From Candidatus Firestonebacteria bacterium RIFOXYD2_FULL_39_29 (GTDB taxonomy: Bacteria > Oederibacteriota > D2-FULL-39-29), in contig MFGV01000012.1 of NCBI GenBank assembly GCA_001778375.1, forward strand, positions 1 through 45,027: DNA of 45,027 nt, read 5' to 3'. Numbering within the stretch: position 1 is the first letter of the stretch; every line of letters begins with the position of its first letter. The notes under the pieces are model-generated. The model searched no databases. It was not told where the DNA came from and saw nothing but the letters and a program-made list of their open reading frames with translations. The position numbers were made by a program, and so were the translations under genes. Shown piece by piece: positions 18,988 through 27,243 of this stretch.

Positions 18988-21372
18988 TCATATTTTCTTA
19001 CGCCTGCCTTTTGAATCCACAAAATATCCTTTTAATTCACACGGATAATCCACATCGTATGAAAGTTTTCCCTGTTTATCTCTTTTCCATTCCGCTTTTA
19101 TGTCACCGAATGATGTAGGAATAACACCTTTTGCCCATTTAATATTTAAATCTTCACAGGGCTTGAATTCAAATGTTTTCCAATTTGCGCCCGTTGCCTT
19201 TAATCCAAGCACATTCCTTGAAAGAAGCGCCACCGGGTGAGCGCTCCACGCATGGCAGACCGACCAGGCACCGTCTAAAGCTCCCCATGTTTCCCAGAAA
19301 GTTGTAGCTTCTTTTTTTATCATTTTGCCCCAACCTTCCTTAATTCTTTTTAAAGCCAGTTCCCTTTCACCGAGCTTAAACAAAGCTTCAAGAACATAGT
19401 AGGCAAAATAACTGCTTGCTCTGGGATTCTTATAGGTAGATTCCTTATAAAAAGAATCTTTTAATATCTTTTTACCGCCGCTACCCACAGGTAAATCCGC
19501 CAAAACCACTAAAGCATTTGCATGCTGGCTCAACTGGCTTAATTTGCCGGTTTTAGGATCATAGGATTCGTACCAGCAGCCTGATTTCCTGTCGTAGAAT
19601 GTTTTTAACAGTGCTTTTTTAAGTTTTATCTCGAGTTTTCTGTAATGACTTCCGTTTTGTTTCAGTAATTTGCATATTCTCTGCATGCACTGCAAACCCA
19701 AAAGATACCATAAATTAAAACTTGCGGTAATCCCTGTTTTATCAATTGTTGACCAGTCCAAAAACAGCCATAACCCTTCGGGATTTCCAAGCAAATTTTT
19801 TTCGCCTGCGAATTTTTCAAACCAGGTTAGATTTGATTTTGCGGCCGGAAAAATCTCCTCAAGTATGGAAATATCTCCCGTATAAAAATAGTATCTTTCA
19901 GCTGCAAGAAGCCATGTAAAATTATAATCGGGTAATATACAGGAATGCGCCTCAGTCGGAAAAACTCCGAATAAGAGCTTATTCGGCAGTTGACTTTGAG
20001 CACCCTGCCTTATTAACCTTTTAGCAAGGAATTTATCGCCAAATGCATGAAAATTAACATCTTCTTCGACTAAAGCATCTCCCATCCATTGCCCCTGTTC
20101 CCGGTCAGGACAATCCACGTAAGAATCAAGCATACAGCAGCGCATGGTCCATCTTCCGACATCCCATATTTTATTTAATTCTTTATCCGAGCACTCAAAT
20201 TTCCCTTTAAAATCAACAGGATAAGCCACAAAGTTATGATAGATCTTTTTTATAATAAGAGGCTTGACCACATTTCTGAAAACTAAAAGCAGATAGCGGT
20301 ATCCCTTAAAATGGAACGGTTCAAACTCCTGCTCCCCTTTCCTGCAAACATACCTGTCTATAAGCGCAATCTCACAGTAATCTTTCGGTTTAAACATAAA
20401 ATTTATATCGTCAGGAGACCTCATAGTATAAAAAAGATCGACAACCTCTCCACCCGCCAAAGATTCTATAGCGATGTTCGGACACCCGACAGAAGTTCTG
20501 CCTGTATCCAGCAATACCGCCAGGAATTTATCTTTGCCTGAGGGTTTTACTGTGAATGATTCAACACCGTCAATGGTTTTCGTTACTTTTATCGGGTTAT
20601 TAGGGGAAGAAGCCGGAATATGATTTCTTTTTTCTTCATATAGTATTTCTCTAAGCCGGCTGTTATTTTTCCAGTCAGCATGATTTTTACCTGAATAAAA
20701 CCTTACTGCGTCAATAAATTTATTTTTTTCTTCACTTAATAAAGGAGTTCCTCTTTCTTCCATATTGTACCAGGGAGAGCCTCCCGGTTTAACCATCTCC
20801 ACCGCACAAAACCATTTACTGTCGTCAAAATCTATTTCTGTCCATCCTTTCTCATCTTTTTTTGCATCAAAAACCTCCTGAAAGAACAAAGCCATTCCAT
20901 ACCGGCTGGTTTCAGGAACCCTGGAGGAATCAGAAATTGCTTTCCAGGTACTGTTGGTATCCAATCTGACCGGTGCGGCGTTTTCCAAGGTCACTTCCCC
21001 GTCAAGAATAATTCCGGCTCTGTTTCTCCAAACGTTAGAAGAAGTGGAAACTCCGCAGGAATAATGAAGAACTGCCAGGACGTTTTTTCCGGGCTTCAGA
21101 TATTTTTTTATATCTACAACATCATACGGCTGAACCCAGGGATAACCCTTGGCAGGACCGCGGCAAACATATACCCCGTTAACCCATAATTTATATCTCG
21201 TATCCGCAGATATCCTGATTGTTGCAGAGTTAATATTATTTCCAGGCAGGTTGAAGCTCTTTCTAAACCTGTAATAAAGATTTATGAAATAAAAACCGTT
21301 GCCAAGCGTAACCCACTTCGCTTTCCAGTTATCCAAAGCTTCATATTTATATCCTAATTTTAATTTGGACAT
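18988..21372 (-). CDS. GH78-like alpha-L-rhamnosidase
   Basis: The 794-residue enzyme has an N-terminal beta-rich region (about 20-390) including a carbohydrate-binding jelly roll (ADTRYKLWVNGVYVCRGPAKG), then an (alpha/alpha)6 barrel (about 395-715) and a C-terminal beta domain. Family hallmarks are DCPDREQGQW (420-429, carrying the acidic catalytic region), the LPDYNFTW block (480-487), TFWETW (691-696, Glu694 as candidate second catalytic acid) and CHAWSAHP (706-713). GH78 enzymes release terminal alpha-L-rhamnose. No signal peptide is present, so the enzyme should act in the cytoplasm on imported oligosaccharides or glycosides. It lies 65 bp downstream of a second large glycosidase. No Shine-Dalgarno precedes ATG 21372, but TATAAT ends 5 nt upstream. 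Confidence 0.85.
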   Translation of the reverse strand: MSKLKLGYKYEALDNWKAKWVTLGNGFYFINLYYRFRKSFNLPGNNINSATIRISADTRYKLWVNGVYVCRGPAKGYPWVQPYDVVDIKKYLKPGKNVLAVLHYSCGVSTSSNVWRNRAGIILDGEVTLENAAPVRLDTNSTWKAISDSSRVPETSRYGMALFFQEVFDAKKDEKGWTEIDFDDSKWFCAVEMVKPGGSPWYNMEERGTPLLSEEKNKFIDAVRFYSGKNHADWKNNSRLREILYEEKRNHIPASSPNNPIKVTKTIDGVESFTVKPSGKDKFLAVLLDTGRTSVGCPNIAIESLAGGEVVDLFYTMRSPDDINFMFKPKDYCEIALIDRYVCRKGEQEFEPFHFKGYRYLLLVFRNVVKPLIIKKIYHNFVAYPVDFKGKFECSDKELNKIWDVGRWTMRCCMLDSYVDCPDREQGQWMGDALVEEDVNFHAFGDKFLAKRLIRQGAQSQLPNKLLFGVFPTEAHSCILPDYNFTWLLAAERYYFYTGDISILEEIFPAAKSNLTWFEKFAGEKNLLGNPEGLWLFLDWSTIDKTGITASFNLWYLLGLQCMQRICKLLKQNGSHYRKLEIKLKKALLKTFYDRKSGCWYESYDPKTGKLSQLSQHANALVVLADLPVGSGGKKILKDSFYKESTYKNPRASSYFAYYVLEALFKLGERELALKRIKEGWGKMIKKEATTFWETWGALDGAWSVCHAWSAHPVALLSRNVLGLKATGANWKTFEFKPCEDLNIKWAKGVIPTSFGDIKAEWKRDKQGKLSYDVDYPCELKGYFVDSKGRRKKI

Positions 21373-21377
21373 GTTTA

Positions 21378-21383
21378 ATTATA
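21378..21383 (-). promoter_or_regulatory. -10-like TATAAT directly before the GH78 start
   Basis: TATAAT lies 5 nt before the ATG at 21372 and no ribosome-binding site is visible. No clear -35 was found at 16-18 bp. It may drive a leaderless internal transcript within the glycosidase pair. Confidence 0.3.
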
Positions 21384-21437
21384 TCATTATCTGCTCAAAT
21401 ATTCCGCAAGATAAATACATCTTTAAAATGCGCTTTA

Positions 21438-24400
21438 TTACCTGCATATTTTTATTATCACCGGACCGATCAATCCTGATTTTAACTCACCCCTGTATCT
21501 GGTCGGGATTGCAATATAATTATTGGACAGAGTATTATAAATTAGCAGTCCTATTTGATTTTCACTTTCCTTTGCAAATTGAGTAATATCGAATGTCCAG
21601 GGTGGTGAAAGCTTAATACCGACGCTCTTCCCGTTCACATACAATTCAACTGAAGATACCAACTCTCCAAGGTCAATTTCCAATTTGTTTTTTAAATCCG
21701 CGGCCAGGATATCAACGGTTTTTCTATACCAGGCTCCGCCGGAATATGATTTTAAACCGTCAATTTTTGACCAGTCTCCCAAATTTATGGAACCTTTGCC
21801 GCATTGCTGCCTGAAATACGCAGGAATAGCGCCTGCACCACGGTAACCCGGCTGGTATTTTATTTTTAATACAACTAGCGAACTCGTTAATTTTGAATCT
21901 TTAAGATTTACAATATACCCCGTTAATCCATCAAGTTGTTTTTGTCCGGCTATCGGTCGTATTTGAACGCCATCAATCCAGATTGTCACTTTTCCGTAAG
22001 CCGAGAAAGTAAATGAACGCAGTCCCGGGGTTGATTCAAAAGCAAATAACCCTTGCGGATCTTTTTTAATTGAACAATCAAAAGGCAGCACGCCATAATC
22101 CTTATACCAACGCATTGAAACCGGTTGCTTTTTAGGATACGGCGCCTTCGGTTTACGTGCCAGGAAGTAGGTCTCACATGCTTTGTTATACACAAGTAAT
22201 ACCGGATTGGCACCTTTTCTCAAAATAATTGTTCTGCTGTTTACATCTGTTTTTGAATTATTTACAAATAATGCTATTGGTTTTTCATTGCCCGTCAAGA
22301 GATCGAAAACTCCTGCAAAAGGAGCAATGATCGATGTATATAGGATGTAGTAATTTCCCGAAGGTTCCGGAAATCTTTTTTTTGAATGTTTCAGTTCTCC
22401 TAAAGCGCCCAAACGGATAAAATCATCATACATTTGTCCTTTCAAGCCGTGCCAGCCCTGATGACCGGGATCGTCTTCTACGCCATGCTGCCAGGAAAAA
22501 GCATACTCTTCCCAGAGGTATTTCTTACCGTTGATCTTTACTCCGGTTCCCGCGTTTTGAGGCTTCATCTTTATCAACTCTTCTTCAAAAGGTAAAACAG
22601 GCAAAGCGCCAAGCTTTTGAAATTGAGGTCCGTAAGCACAGGTCACGTTTTTCCAGTTTTTATCAAAAACAATTTTCTCACCAGCATACTCTTTGTCTTC
22701 ACAAGAGTACAATTGCCGCACTTCCGCGCCTAATAATTCTTTCCCGGCAGGAAGCTTAAAGTCCCCCCATTGATTATCAAGCGAAGGCTTTATTTCAAAC
22801 TCCCAGGTATTGTCGAGAGTAATTTCCTTTAAAACTTTTTTCTTTCTGATAATATTTTTACATCCGGTGTTTTCCGGGTCAAAAACAATGATCTGGATTT
22901 CTTTTTTTGATAACGGTAAAGTTAATTCCGTGCCTTCATTCGTCTGCACGGCAAAATCAGAGAGCGAAGCAATTCCCCCTTTCCATGGATCCCAGAGCGT
23001 AACCGCTCCTTTCGCTTTAAAAAAACATCTGCTTCCTGCAGGGAAATTGTACAGAGCATACACATCACGTTTTCCTATTATCCGGTGCACAACATAAGGT
23101 CTTTCCTTCAATGCTGAAAGTATTTTGAAGTTAGCCTGATATTTTCCCGATATAATAGAAGGCACTATTTTTGCATCCTGGCAACGTAAAATGTTCCGTC
23201 TTTTTGCAAATATACCGGCAATAAGTTCTGATGTTTTCGCATCATTCGAGCCGCATTTTTCCGTTGCTTCGGGGATATCACCGATATTTACTATCAAACC
23301 GCCGGCATTTTTGAACTCTTCTATTTTTCTAAGCGAAGAATAACGCATTACCTTCATCGAAGGAATAACCAGCACCTTATATTTTTCGCCTGCAACCTGC
23401 AATTCTTTGTCTTTAACCCCGGCGCACGCCAGAGATTCAAAATCAATAAAGTCGAAGTCGATGCCTTTGTCGTATAACCTTTCCCCTGCTTCAAAAGCAG
23501 CGTTCACGGATTTTTTCCCGTCCAGTCCGGCAATCACCGGTTCGGTGGGATAAATAATTGCAACGTCACAATTGTGATAACCCTGTGACAGCAAGTACGA
23601 CAGACGCTGTATACAATCCATCAAAGGACTAATTTGGGCCCAATAAGGCATACGGAAATGATTGCAGGGTGGCGCCCATTCCCACCAACCGCCTTGTGTT
23701 GAATATTTAAGAGCGGCAAATGACAGTAGATTATATCCTGCCACAAAATTGGCAAAAATAGCATCCGTAACGGCGGCAGAAGTTGTACCCCAACCGCTGC
23801 CATAAAAGCCTTCAAGCCACACACGCGGCCGGTTGTACAAATGGGCAATTGATGATGCAACTTTTGCTTTGATAATATCTTTTGACAGATTAGGCTGATC
23901 CGAACCCGGACCCTGATTCCAGCGCTGCGTACGGAAATAATCACCGAATTCTTCAGGATCTTTTCCCCGTCCGCCGTGATCACAGCCATAAATAAGACCT
24001 CTGTCCTGATGCCACTGATATACAGGCTTAAAAAAGTTTTCTTCAGAAAGTTTCACGATAACATCATTATAATCGAGCCGTATTTTCGGGGTGACAGACC
24101 CGATGTCGGTATATAAAGCATCCAGATACGGGATCAGGTCATAGGATTTTCGTTTTTTAAATTCTTTTGCAAAACGTTTATTCCAAAGATTACCGATTAC
24201 CCTGAAATTTAATTCATCAGAAAAGAAAAAATTAAGATATTTTGAACTTTTTCCCGGCAACGCTTTTTCAAATTTCTCGAAAAAATATTTAATATAGGCC
24301 TTACCGCTTTGCGGATGCATAGGGTCGTAGGAGGGAATTAACCGCTCTGCATATACGGCTATTACTTTCCATTTTTCCCGGCCAAAATCATAACTCAAAC

Positions 24401-24971
24401 TGCCGGCTTTAACCTTAGACATAATATTTTTTCTGGTATTAATGTTCAAAGAACCGTCTTCTTTCATTTTATACACGGTCAGATTAAGAAGATTTTCCGG
24501 CATCTTAAGAGTGCCTGCCCCGGCGAGAATATTCGTAATATTTTTCAGCATGGAACCGTTTAACTCCGGATTTTTTTCTATTGCTTCATCCATTGAAAAA
24601 CCCTGCCCTATCCCGAGCGTATAATCACTAAGGCTCACTGTCATATCACGCTTTTTAGCTTCAAAAGCAAACCATTTAAAAAGTTTCCACCATTCCACTG
24701 TAAAAAGCGCAGGTTTGCTGGGATTGGAAAGGCCAAAGAAAAAACCGCCTTCATCAAGATGGCTGTAATTGATCTGCAGGCTGGATATGCCTTTATTCTT
24801 TAGTTGATCCAACTGCCAAAGCAGGCGCTTTCGGGTAAGCCTATCCCCCTGCCACCAGTAAAAAGGAACTTCACCATAACCTTTTGGAGGATCAATAAAC
24901 CCCGGCAATACATCCATAGAAACGCTTCTATCAGGATACCCTGCCTGCATTAAATGCGTATTTTTAGTCAT
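21438..24971 (-). CDS. GH106-like large glycoside hydrolase (putative alpha-L-rhamnosidase)
   Basis: The 1177-residue protein begins with the pattern FIDPPKGYGEVPFYWW (25-40) then LTRKRLLWQLDQLKNKGI. This resembles the opening of the (beta/alpha)8 domain of GH106 rhamnosidases and related very large hydrolases. A GWGTTSAAVTDAIFANF stretch and a glutamine-amidotransferase-like segment (AIIYPTEPVIAGLDG... VLVIPSMKVM) follow. The C-terminal third has beta-sandwich domains, ending in a GH2-type sugar-binding fold (GGAWYRKTVDI... VSSVELYVNGKSVG... PPWTFDITQFAK). Catalytic residues cannot be fixed by eye. There is no signal peptide, so it is probably intracellular. AAAGGAG precedes ATG 24971. It pairs with the GH78-like gene downstream, consistent with using rhamnose-containing glycans or plant glycosides. 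Other GH2-superfamily activities are possible. Confidence 0.7.
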   Translation of the reverse strand: MTKNTHLMQAGYPDRSVSMDVLPGFIDPPKGYGEVPFYWWQGDRLTRKRLLWQLDQLKNKGISSLQINYSHLDEGGFFFGLSNPSKPALFTVEWWKLFKWFAFEAKKRDMTVSLSDYTLGIGQGFSMDEAIEKNPELNGSMLKNITNILAGAGTLKMPENLLNLTVYKMKEDGSLNINTRKNIMSKVKAGSLSYDFGREKWKVIAVYAERLIPSYDPMHPQSGKAYIKYFFEKFEKALPGKSSKYLNFFFSDELNFRVIGNLWNKRFAKEFKKRKSYDLIPYLDALYTDIGSVTPKIRLDYNDVIVKLSEENFFKPVYQWHQDRGLIYGCDHGGRGKDPEEFGDYFRTQRWNQGPGSDQPNLSKDIIKAKVASSIAHLYNRPRVWLEGFYGSGWGTTSAAVTDAIFANFVAGYNLLSFAALKYSTQGGWWEWAPPCNHFRMPYWAQISPLMDCIQRLSYLLSQGYHNCDVAIIYPTEPVIAGLDGKKSVNAAFEAGERLYDKGIDFDFIDFESLACAGVKDKELQVAGEKYKVLVIPSMKVMRYSSLRKIEEFKNAGGLIVNIGDIPEATEKCGSNDAKTSELIAGIFAKRRNILRCQDAKIVPSIISGKYQANFKILSALKERPYVVHRIIGKRDVYALYNFPAGSRCFFKAKGAVTLWDPWKGGIASLSDFAVQTNEGTELTLPLSKKEIQIIVFDPENTGCKNIIRKKKVLKEITLDNTWEFEIKPSLDNQWGDFKLPAGKELLGAEVRQLYSCEDKEYAGEKIVFDKNWKNVTCAYGPQFQKLGALPVLPFEEELIKMKPQNAGTGVKINGKKYLWEEYAFSWQHGVEDDPGHQGWHGLKGQMYDDFIRLGALGELKHSKKRFPEPSGNYYILYTSIIAPFAGVFDLLTGNEKPIALFVNNSKTDVNSRTIILRKGANPVLLVYNKACETYFLARKPKAPYPKKQPVSMRWYKDYGVLPFDCSIKKDPQGLFAFESTPGLRSFTFSAYGKVTIWIDGVQIRPIAGQKQLDGLTGYIVNLKDSKLTSSLVVLKIKYQPGYRGAGAIPAYFRQQCGKGSINLGDWSKIDGLKSYSGGAWYRKTVDILAADLKNKLEIDLGELVSSVELYVNGKSVGIKLSPPWTFDITQFAKESENQIGLLIYNTLSNNYIAIPTRYRGELKSGLIGPVIIKICR

Positions 24972-25093: not shown

Positions 25094-26863
25094 TTATTTT
25101 TCATACAGCAGATTATTCAATAAAACGGAGGCTTTTTTACTTCCTTGTTTTTCGGCAAGACTGTACCATTTTTTTGCTTCATTTATGTCTTTTTTAACAC
25201 TCAACCCTTCCTCATACATCTGACCGAGGAAGATCTGGGCATCAACATAGCCTTTACCGGCTGATTTCTTGATCCAGGAAACGGCTTCCTGATTATCACC
25301 GTTCCGGTCATCAAACAAATATTGACCCACTTCATACTCCGAGAGGGTCTTTGCTAGTTCTGAAGAGTTTTTGTACCATTCCTCCGTATAAAACTCATCA
25401 GTTTCAGGTTTTTCCGGATCATCTTCAGCAGCTTTTTTAAAATATTTAAAAGCATTTTTATAATCACCTATGTACTGATAGTACTCTCCCCTGGAATAAG
25501 AGCTCATCTTCCAGACCTGTCGTTTCTCCGCCATCTCCCAGAAACCGTCATCCATTTCTTTACACATTTTGCTCAGCAGGGCTTTTATATATTTAATCTT
25601 TGCCGCAATAACCGGATCGTTTTTGCTCTTTTTCTTTATAACTTCCGGGTAAAACACCATATGACAGAATATCTCCGCGCGATCCTCTTTTGCATTTGCC
25701 TGGGAGTATCTTGTTATAAAACCGGAAAAAGGCTTTTTGTTCTGCCGGTCTTTCGCAATTTTGTCAAGGAATTCCTCGCCTATTCCGAACCTGCAGAAAT
25801 ACTTAAAATCTTTTGGATTTAGTTTTTCCCACTCTTCCTCTTCTTCCCCTTTAAGTTCATCCAAGGAATGGAAAAACTCGTGATGCACCGTAAGCCGGAT
25901 ATGGTTAAAAGTATCTAGTTCCCCTACATTCTGAAAAAAAGCATTATTTCCCCTCATAAAAAGAGCGTACCCCAGTCTCTGATTTTCATTATTTTTCATA
26001 TTCCGGCAAAGGACTATCTTTTTCATCATTGAACTTTCAAATAGTGCAGGGGGATAAATGGAAAACTCCGACATGAGCATTGGAACATACACCGCAAGCT
26101 GGGAATCAAGAGCTTTTTCACCATTTACGCCGGAGCTGTTATAAAAAAGCTTTTTGTAATCCACGGTGATCTTATATTTCTTTTCAAATTTTTCTATTTG
26201 CTTCTGCCAGTACTCGTTGGGAGCTTTTTTGCCGTCTTTAGAACCCGTCTCTCCTGCTATATTTGAGACACACAAAAGACAGCCGAGTACGGCTGTCAAG
26301 AATACACATATATTCCGCGTTTTTGTAATCTTCTTAGCCCTGGAAATAAACTCTCGATACTTTTTTAAGTTTGATTCCCCTTTTGCCCATTTCTCGATGC
26401 TTTTATAGTCAAGAGTTTTAGTTTTTGCCACAAGAATAGCCTGCTCCAGTGATTGTTTATCGTCCCAGTAAAAATAAGCAGCCAGTCTATCTTTAACACA
26501 ATCCGATGGTGTAAGGAGTTTTATCATACCCTTTCGAGTCTTAATAATGGAAAGCTGTTTTACCGGAGCATTTCCTATAGCCAGAGGAGGTTGAACAAAA
26601 TCGAGAAAATATTCACAATCTTTTTTTTCAAAGAATCTCGTTTTATCTTTTCTCTTGAAACCTATTTCCGTTAAAGCATTCTCAATTTCCCCAAGCGGCC
26701 AGTCAGAAACTATATCAATATCTCCTGAAGAGTATTTATTATTGGAGTATATTTCAACACAAGCACCCCCAACAAGAGTCGAATCTATACCATATTTACT
26801 TAAAGTCCCCTGGACAACAACCGCTACATCTTTTACTTTCATTGTTGCCCAATTATTATTCAT
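25094..26863 (-). CDS. Nucleotidyltransferase fused to a membrane-anchored zinc metallopeptidase with Sel1/TPR repeats
   Basis: This 589-residue protein joins parts usually encoded separately. Residues 8-178 are a nucleotidyltransferase-like domain (LVGGACVEIY 30-39, SSGDIDIV 45-52 with Asp48/Asp50, TPSDCVKDRLAAYFYWDDKQ) of the AbiEii/DUF6036-like kind. Residues 184-203 form a signal-like hydrophobic stretch (ICVFLTAVLGCLLCVSNIAG) with a possible lipobox VLGC. Residues 215-440 contain HHEFFHSL (zinc motif HEFFH, 328-332) and EDRAEIF with Glu397 as probable third zinc ligand. Residues 450-589 hold a TPR-like stretch and a Sel1 repeat (AGKGYVDAQIFLGQMYEEGLSVKKDINEAKKWY). The frame is open throughout and no start codon with a ribosome site lies at the junction. 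It overlaps the winged-helix gene by 4 bp. The fusion is real in this sequence; its function is unknown. Confidence 0.8.
   Translation of the reverse strand: MNNNWATMKVKDVAVVVQGTLSKYGIDSTLVGGACVEIYSNNKYSSGDIDIVSDWPLGEIENALTEIGFKRKDKTRFFEKKDCEYFLDFVQPPLAIGNAPVKQLSIIKTRKGMIKLLTPSDCVKDRLAAYFYWDDKQSLEQAILVAKTKTLDYKSIEKWAKGESNLKKYREFISRAKKITKTRNICVFLTAVLGCLLCVSNIAGETGSKDGKKAPNEYWQKQIEKFEKKYKITVDYKKLFYNSSGVNGEKALDSQLAVYVPMLMSEFSIYPPALFESSMMKKIVLCRNMKNNENQRLGYALFMRGNNAFFQNVGELDTFNHIRLTVHHEFFHSLDELKGEEEEEWEKLNPKDFKYFCRFGIGEEFLDKIAKDRQNKKPFSGFITRYSQANAKEDRAEIFCHMVFYPEVIKKKSKNDPVIAAKIKYIKALLSKMCKEMDDGFWEMAEKRQVWKMSSYSRGEYYQYIGDYKNAFKYFKKAAEDDPEKPETDEFYTEEWYKNSSELAKTLSEYEVGQYLFDDRNGDNQEAVSWIKKSAGKGYVDAQIFLGQMYEEGLSVKKDINEAKKWYSLAEKQGSKKASVLLNNLLYEK
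26278..26297 (-). other. Terminator-like hairpin inside the fusion junction
   Basis: GACAGCCG and CGGCTGTC form a perfect 8-bp stem with a 4-nt loop, followed on the coding (minus) strand by TTTTGTGTGT. It lies at codons 189-195, within the hydrophobic stretch just after the nucleotidyltransferase domain. It may be a relic of a terminator between two formerly separate genes, or a chance hairpin in coding sequence. Confidence 0.35.
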
Positions 26864-27189
26864 AACGGTTTTCCTTTTTGGCGGGGCCTATTTCTTTCCA
26901 TATAATATTTATCAGCATATCCTTCAGGAAGGAACTCTGAAGCTTTTTTTATTAAAATAATCAATTCTTTGGCAAAAGGATATCTGGGGTTTAACTCATA
27001 CATTCTGGTTCTGCCGACTAAAACACTTACAAGGATTCCGCCCTGTTCAAGACGCGTCAATTGCTGTTGTATTCCATTTATTCTGATGTCATAAACATTT
27101 GCAAGCTTGCTTGCATAAGCCTTTTTACAGTAATACATATAAAATAGAATTTTCTCAACAACATCATTCCCAAATATAGGCTTCAACAT
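26860..27189 (-). CDS. Winged-helix regulator paired with the nucleotidyltransferase
   Basis: The 109-residue protein contains a winged helix-turn-helix (about 6-72: KILFYMYYCKKAYASKLANVYDIRINGIQQQLTRLEQGGILVSVLVGRTRMYELNP in outline, the recognition helix near IRINGIQQQLTRLE). A basic C-terminus RNRPRQKGKPL follows. Small ArsR/MarR-like regulators of this shape are commonly encoded directly before a nucleotidyltransferase gene, an arrangement reminiscent of AbiEi-AbiEii toxin-antitoxin pairs. Here it overlaps the nucleotidyltransferase fusion by an ATGA. The promoter contains two identical-spaced palindromes (27199-27234), which strongly suggests autorepression. Whether the pair is a toxin-antitoxin module is inference. 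Confidence 0.75.
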   Translation of the reverse strand: MLKPIFGNDVVEKILFYMYYCKKAYASKLANVYDIRINGIQQQLTRLEQGGILVSVLVGRTRMYELNPRYPFAKELIILIKKASEFLPEGYADKYYMERNRPRQKGKPL

Positions 27190-27198
27190 ACACCCTCC

Positions 27199-27243
27199 AC
27201 CATACTATATGGTAATATTACCATACTTTATGGTTATTGTCAA
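27199..27243 (-). promoter_or_regulatory. Consensus promoter with twin operators for the winged-helix/nucleotidyltransferase operon
   Basis: TTGACA (27238-27243), a 17-bp spacer and TAATAT (27215-27220) form a near-perfect sigma-70 promoter. Two 15-bp palindromes, ACCATAAAGTATGGT (27220-27234) and ACCATATAGTATGGT (27199-27213), flank the -10 element. Their centres are 21 bp apart, two helical turns, so bound dimers would sit on the same face. GGAGGG at 27193-27198 precedes ATG 27189 by 3 nt. The layout predicts tight repression by a dimeric regulator, most simply the first gene product. Confidence 0.8.

Follow-up and report, generated by a model that had tools for sequence, protein, structure and literature searches.

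Organization of the locus

In the window, the 45,027-nucleotide stretch of DNA analyzed here, we observe on the minus strand a gene for a 109-residue winged-helix (wHTH) regulator that overlaps by 4 nt the start of a nucleotidyltransferase (NTase) gene, in agreement with the AbiE-like two-gene layout described in an earlier note on this DNA (Table 1). In the open reading frames of the window, the frame that begins with the NTase runs from position 26863 to 25094, giving 589 uninterrupted codons with no internal stop. The encoded protein consists, in order, of the NTase (GG at residues 32–33, D48/D50 and D88), a hydrophobic helix, a zincin domain with HEFFH at residues 328–332 and EDRAEIF at 393–399, a TPR region and Sel1 repeats. 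Residues 275–406 match the Pfam family Peptidase_Mx1 (E 7e-9; 35.8 bits, above the curated cut-off of 25.6), and the characteristic feature of that family, HExxH followed by an acidic EDxAE segment, is present. Two Sel1 repeats are matched with an E of 1.6e-13, and the TPR match is weak and falls below its cut-off. The helix, residues 185–203, is preceded by basic residues and is the sole strongly hydrophobic 19-residue stretch of the protein, with a mean Kyte–Doolittle value of 2.38, as against at most 1.16 elsewhere. The domain order that the earlier note had proposed is found in one continuous frame, and its description of the locus is accurate. A search of the genome found the fused gene in a single copy; the nearest named relatives place the genome in Candidatus Firestonebacteria.

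Table 1. Features of the wHTH–NTase–peptidase locus (positions in the window)
Feature	Position	Strand	Basis or remark
−35-like hexamer TTGACA, with TAATAT at 27220-27215 and a 17-nt spacer; sigma-70-type promoter candidate for the operon	27238..27243	-	10/12 matches
Putative operator, first half: ACCATAAAGTATGGT, 15-bp palindrome lying between −35 and −10	27220..27234	-	palindrome scan
Putative operator, second half: ACCATATAGTATGGT, 15-bp palindrome lying 21 nt downstream of the first half	27199..27213	-	palindrome scan
wHTH (ArsR/MarR-like) regulator gene, 109 aa, conserved C-terminus RPRxxGKPL	26860..27189	-	homologue comparison
NTase domain, residues 1-178: hGGx14DID, D88, invariant DRLAAYFYWDD segment	26330..26863	-	relatives end here; weak DUF2204 only
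Fusion junction, residues 173-183	26315..26347	-	start-codon scan, comparison with relatives
Terminator-like element within the fused frame, shortly after the junction: perfect 8-bp hairpin, then TTTTGTGT	26278..26297	-	−15.1 kcal/mol for hairpin
Hydrophobic helix, residues 185-203, probably the h-region of the peptidase's old signal peptide	26255..26311	-	aligns with stand-alone relative's signal peptide
Zincin domain, residues 206-445 (Peptidase_Mx1); HEFFH 25868-25882, EDRAEIF 25667-25687	25529..26248	-	Pfam, alignment
TPR-like and Sel1 repeats, residues 456-580	25124..25498	-	Pfam, PDB sequence search

The wHTH–NTase pair

The wHTH–NTase pair is a widespread, ordinary two-gene operon for which the libraries tested (Pfam, NCBIfam and PADLOC) offer no named model. 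NTase matches at E 1e-6 or better occur in 35 of 384 genomes, including 13 of the 45 genomes of the phylum, and wHTH relatives adjoin the NTase in nearly all loci compared. Plasmids of Sulfurimonas, Sulfurospirillum, Bdellovibrio and Leptospira also carry the pair, as do three contigs of a viral collection; the phage collection searched contained no NTase relatives, and the viral contigs searched with the wHTH alignment and with the peptidase contained no relatives of either. General features of toxin–antitoxin systems are present, namely two small overlapping genes that are co-inherited, patchily distributed and carried on mobile DNA.

DUF2204 (PF09970), a family of NTases of unknown function, matches the N-terminal core in 9 of the 11 members of the NTase family compared, with a best E of 2e-5 in one member; the match to the window NTase is below the curated cut-off (E 0.0026) and covers only about residues 16–51. 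No NCBIfam model matched the NTase of the window protein or of two relatives, and a PDB sequence search with the NTase found nothing. The predicted structure of the NTase is of moderate confidence (mean pLDDT 71, pTM 0.56), and a fold search of this model against the PDB gave nothing significant, the best hit being an NTase-like protein at E 0.23.

The pair resembles the AbiE type IV toxin–antitoxin systems (COG5340-DUF1814; MenAT of mycobacteria) in that a wHTH gene, the autoregulator in AbiE, directly precedes the gene for a polymerase-β-type NTase, in the paired inverted repeats over its promoter, as for abiE (PMC3985639), and in its occurrence on plasmids. The core of AbiE motifs I/II, hG[G/S]x15DhD, is recognizable as hGGx14DID at residues 31–50, one residue shorter than reported. 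Despite these similarities, we consider it highly improbable that the pair is itself an AbiE (AbiEi/AbiEii) phage-defense system. Neither AbiEii nor AbiEi Pfam models match the window proteins, and the PADLOC AbiEii model gives only stray matches in 2 of the 11 NTase members, at E 0.013 and weaker. The RLAAYFYWDD segment is similar to AbiE motif III, KLxAaxxR, without its final arginine, and no +DxxD (motif IV) follows in this NTase of 180 residues. In addition, the 109-residue wHTH protein ends in a short tail and is too short to hold the separate antitoxin domain of the two-domain AbiEi, and the palindromes differ from those of abiE in sequence and spacing. The MNT–HEPN (HepT) modules are likewise mobile two-gene pairs based on an NTase; the partner in the window differs from theirs in that it is a DNA-binding wHTH protein and not HEPN. 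The phage-defense candidate PDC-M05 was dropped, as only the generic winged-helix part of its first component was matched and its second component gave no match. Two nearly identical NTase relatives, in G008 and G006 (L039:997-1536 and L040:4264-4803), lack the DxD, with GEPVFAV replacing GDIDIV, and keep their wHTH partner; judged by this motif, these copies are possibly catalytically dead.

Twin palindromes over the promoter

The candidate promoter TTGACA-17-TAATAT lies just upstream of the wHTH start and overlaps the putative operator, a pair of 15-bp palindromes; the number of sigma-70-type sites in the region is not above that in shuffled sequences. The same palindrome pair arrangement lies upstream of the wHTH gene in the congener G001 and in most relatives. 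Over 23 regions upstream of related wHTH genes, the summed palindrome-pair score is 225 at a spacing of 21 nt versus 178–195 at every other spacing from 16 to 30, and at 21 nt p is below 0.05 against first-order shuffles in 15 of the 23. The letters of the palindromes vary among lineages, and the 21-nt register is constant in most wHTH–NTase operons across several phyla. This register corresponds to two helical turns and so fits two dimers bound on one face of the DNA.

The conserved position of the paired palindromes upstream of the wHTH gene points to an autoregulated, AbiE-like module. AbiEi represses through two inverted repeats in the abiE promoter (PMC3985639), which suggests the same control logic here, though the sequences and the protein families differ. 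Most likely, the wHTH protein acts at its own promoter by binding to the two palindromes there; as a repressor, it would set the level of the whole transcript. Carrying this twin-operator signature (palindromes of 15 bp, register of 21 nt) and belonging to no family named in the libraries tested, the wHTH–NTase pair is a ready candidate for toxin–antitoxin tests, and this by-product of the analysis may be worth more than the fusion itself.

The two genes are separate in relatives

In all 23 NTase relatives examined, a stop codon lies 0–18 residues past the matched region, as opposed to 409 in the window. The congener G001 carries the pair at the syntenic locus, preceded by the same neighbors as in the window (ligase-like, glycosyltransferase and MraY-like genes), and the pair is 77–84% identical to that of the window (77% for the NTase, 83% for the wHTH protein). 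In this genome the NTase ends in TAA, and the very next codon starts a different, exported MORN-repeat gene. With this gene (L027:5550-6128), an exported gene is found directly next to this NTase for the second time. Matches running past the NTase in G001 and others were rejected as downstream homology, the two signal peptides simply aligning across the stop codon. Long frames in G170 (412) and G010 (296) were also rejected as fusions, their extensions being N-terminal readings upstream of the NTase.

The peptidase part has its own stand-alone counterpart. The genome G004, which belongs to the same family, encodes the peptidase in a gene of its own (438 residues, with a signal peptide); this peptidase is 67% identical to the peptidase part of the window protein and shares its TPR/Sel1 repeats, and its gene sits among glycosyltransferase genes with an unrelated gene upstream. 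The fact that the NTase part matches its relatives from end to end and that the peptidase part is 67% identical to a stand-alone protein indicates that the fused frame did not arise by chance. In the alignment with the G004 peptidase, the internal helix falls on that protein's signal peptide (ILTAVL/FLTAVL), which identifies the helix as the probable old signal peptide of the protease. Distant Peptidase_Mx1 relatives with a readable N terminus look exported or like lipoproteins, and their signal sequence is N-terminal whereas that of the fused protein is internal. The HExxH and EDxAE segments, together with export, are common to Peptidase_Mx1 proteins, LIC13305-type lipoproteins and the TIGR04549 zinc metallohydrolase lipoproteins; the window protein differs in its N-terminally fused NTase and in its added TPR/Sel1 repeats, which the G004 peptidase also has. 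A PDB sequence search with the peptidase part returned only Sel1/TPR proteins, its predicted structure is poor (pLDDT 44, two sequences), and a search of a literature library on Peptidase_Mx1 and on DUF2204 NTases found nothing.

The junction

Between codons 146 and 188 of the fused frame there is no in-frame ATG, GTG or TTG, so that the protease lacks a normal start of its own. A rare start, ATT, occurs at codon 179, eight bases after AGGG, and would open a typical signal peptide. From these features, translation of the protease would depend on ribosomes continuing from the NTase, on rare re-initiation, or on both. The terminator-like hairpin with its TTTTGTGT tail, located inside the frame, might reduce transcription into the protease part; the stand-alone relative has no such element in its corresponding stretch. 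The base composition changes along the frame, with GC3 at 0.30/0.31 in the NTase and wHTH genes but 0.43 for the peptidase (Fisher p 0.0007); the corresponding gene boundary of G001 shows the same step, 0.35 to 0.50.

These data bear on whether the continuous frame reflects a sequence or assembly error, the two genes being separate in the organism, whether abutting or overlapping, and joined by a base-level mistake. Such an error is consistent with the separate genes in every relative and with the draft state of the source genome (93 contigs), and, according to a frame simulation, an error of one base around the junction could mask a stop codon. A single substitution would nevertheless be insufficient, because the protease would still have no normal start, and the stretch in which an indel would be needed, after the conserved Phe172, contains no long homopolymer. 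Elsewhere in the window, orthologue lengths match those of relatives (701/699, 593/586, 333/333, 318/317 and 1051/1041), which argues that frameshift errors are not common in it. We regard an error as unlikely.

Origin and meaning of the fusion

We consider it probable, from the comparison of sequences, that the locus results from a one-off, lineage-specific in-frame fusion of an autoregulated, toxin–antitoxin-like wHTH–NTase module with a complete, adjacent gene for an exported Peptidase_Mx1/Sel1 protease. The two genes are separate in every relative found, as the comparison proposed in the earlier note was designed to ask, so that the fusion looks like a lineage-specific event and not a new kind of system. 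That note had named a recent gene fusion as one of its alternatives, and this alternative gains support from the separate genes, from the position of the junction at the end of the NTase and from the match between the helix and a signal peptide. The fusion would have arisen when the NTase lost its stop codon and the protease its normal start. One product would be the 589-residue protein with the old signal peptide serving as an N-in/C-out signal anchor, keeping the NTase cytoplasmic and exposing the protease on the outside; signal peptidase may cut it at this point. In addition or instead, translation could re-initiate weakly within the frame, near codon 179, and yield the protease. Each half probably still performs the function it had before the fusion.

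The dN/dS ratio between the window and G001 is about 0.1 for both the wHTH and NTase genes, like that of neighboring genes, and the peptidase differs from that of G004 with a dN of 0.19 and a saturated dS. Given the low dN and the fact that all invariant NTase positions are kept in the window protein, both halves look functional; these pairwise values span pre-fusion time and hence give no sign of selection on the fused form.

The intact catalytic motifs in both halves, their low dN, and a geometry that would put them on opposite sides of the membrane would also suit a real coupled transmembrane system, in which a cytoplasmic NTase and an outside protease work as one machine, for example with the state of the protease controlling NTase toxicity or with the NTase anchoring the protease. 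We judge such a system very unlikely. The fusion is seen in one genome only: no second NTase–zincin case occurs among NTase relatives in 384 window-centered and 386 other-phylum-centered genomes (partly the same), nor among the plasmid or viral hits examined, and the NTase of the congener works, or at least persists, without the protease. The earlier note's proposal that the fusion couples the NTase to envelope proteolysis, and its suggested domain-architecture search for further NTase–TM–HExxH–Sel1 proteins, thus find no support in the genomes searched, where NTase relatives end at the domain end. The proposal is weakened further by the close peptidase relative, a stand-alone exported protein whose signal peptide already explains the helix. 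A literature search for NTase–metallopeptidase fusions in a toxin–antitoxin context returned no paper whose title or abstract describes one. Coupling of the two activities is possible, and nothing found favors it; that the 589-residue protein has been kept as one membrane-spanning NTase–zincin enzyme under the wHTH operator, selected for linking the NTase to outside proteolysis, we hold to be scarcely likely. What we find instead looks like a genuine and singular fusion between a two-gene module and an exported protease, each of a known kind. It is most likely an isolated accident of evolution and offers a clean example of how a protein with an internal signal anchor may originate when an operon gene runs into its exported neighbor.

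A variable slot beside the MraY-like gene

The window also holds, adjoining the fusion at 18988-24971 on the minus strand, two large rhamnosidase-type genes (Bac_rhamnosid6H and Glyco_hydro_106); the related genomes compared show no homologues of them at the corresponding position. They lie in a slot bounded by the MraY-like gene and RNase R, and the content of this slot varies within the family: G003 and G002 have other genes there, G001 and the window have the wHTH–NTase pair, and G004 has a Polbeta NTase and HepT-like pair (L112:8823-9432) beside the MraY-like gene, in the same syntenic position. This variation suggests that the slot is an integration-prone place for NTase modules, and its acceptance of mobile NTase modules fits how an exported-protease gene and a wHTH–NTase pair became neighbors.
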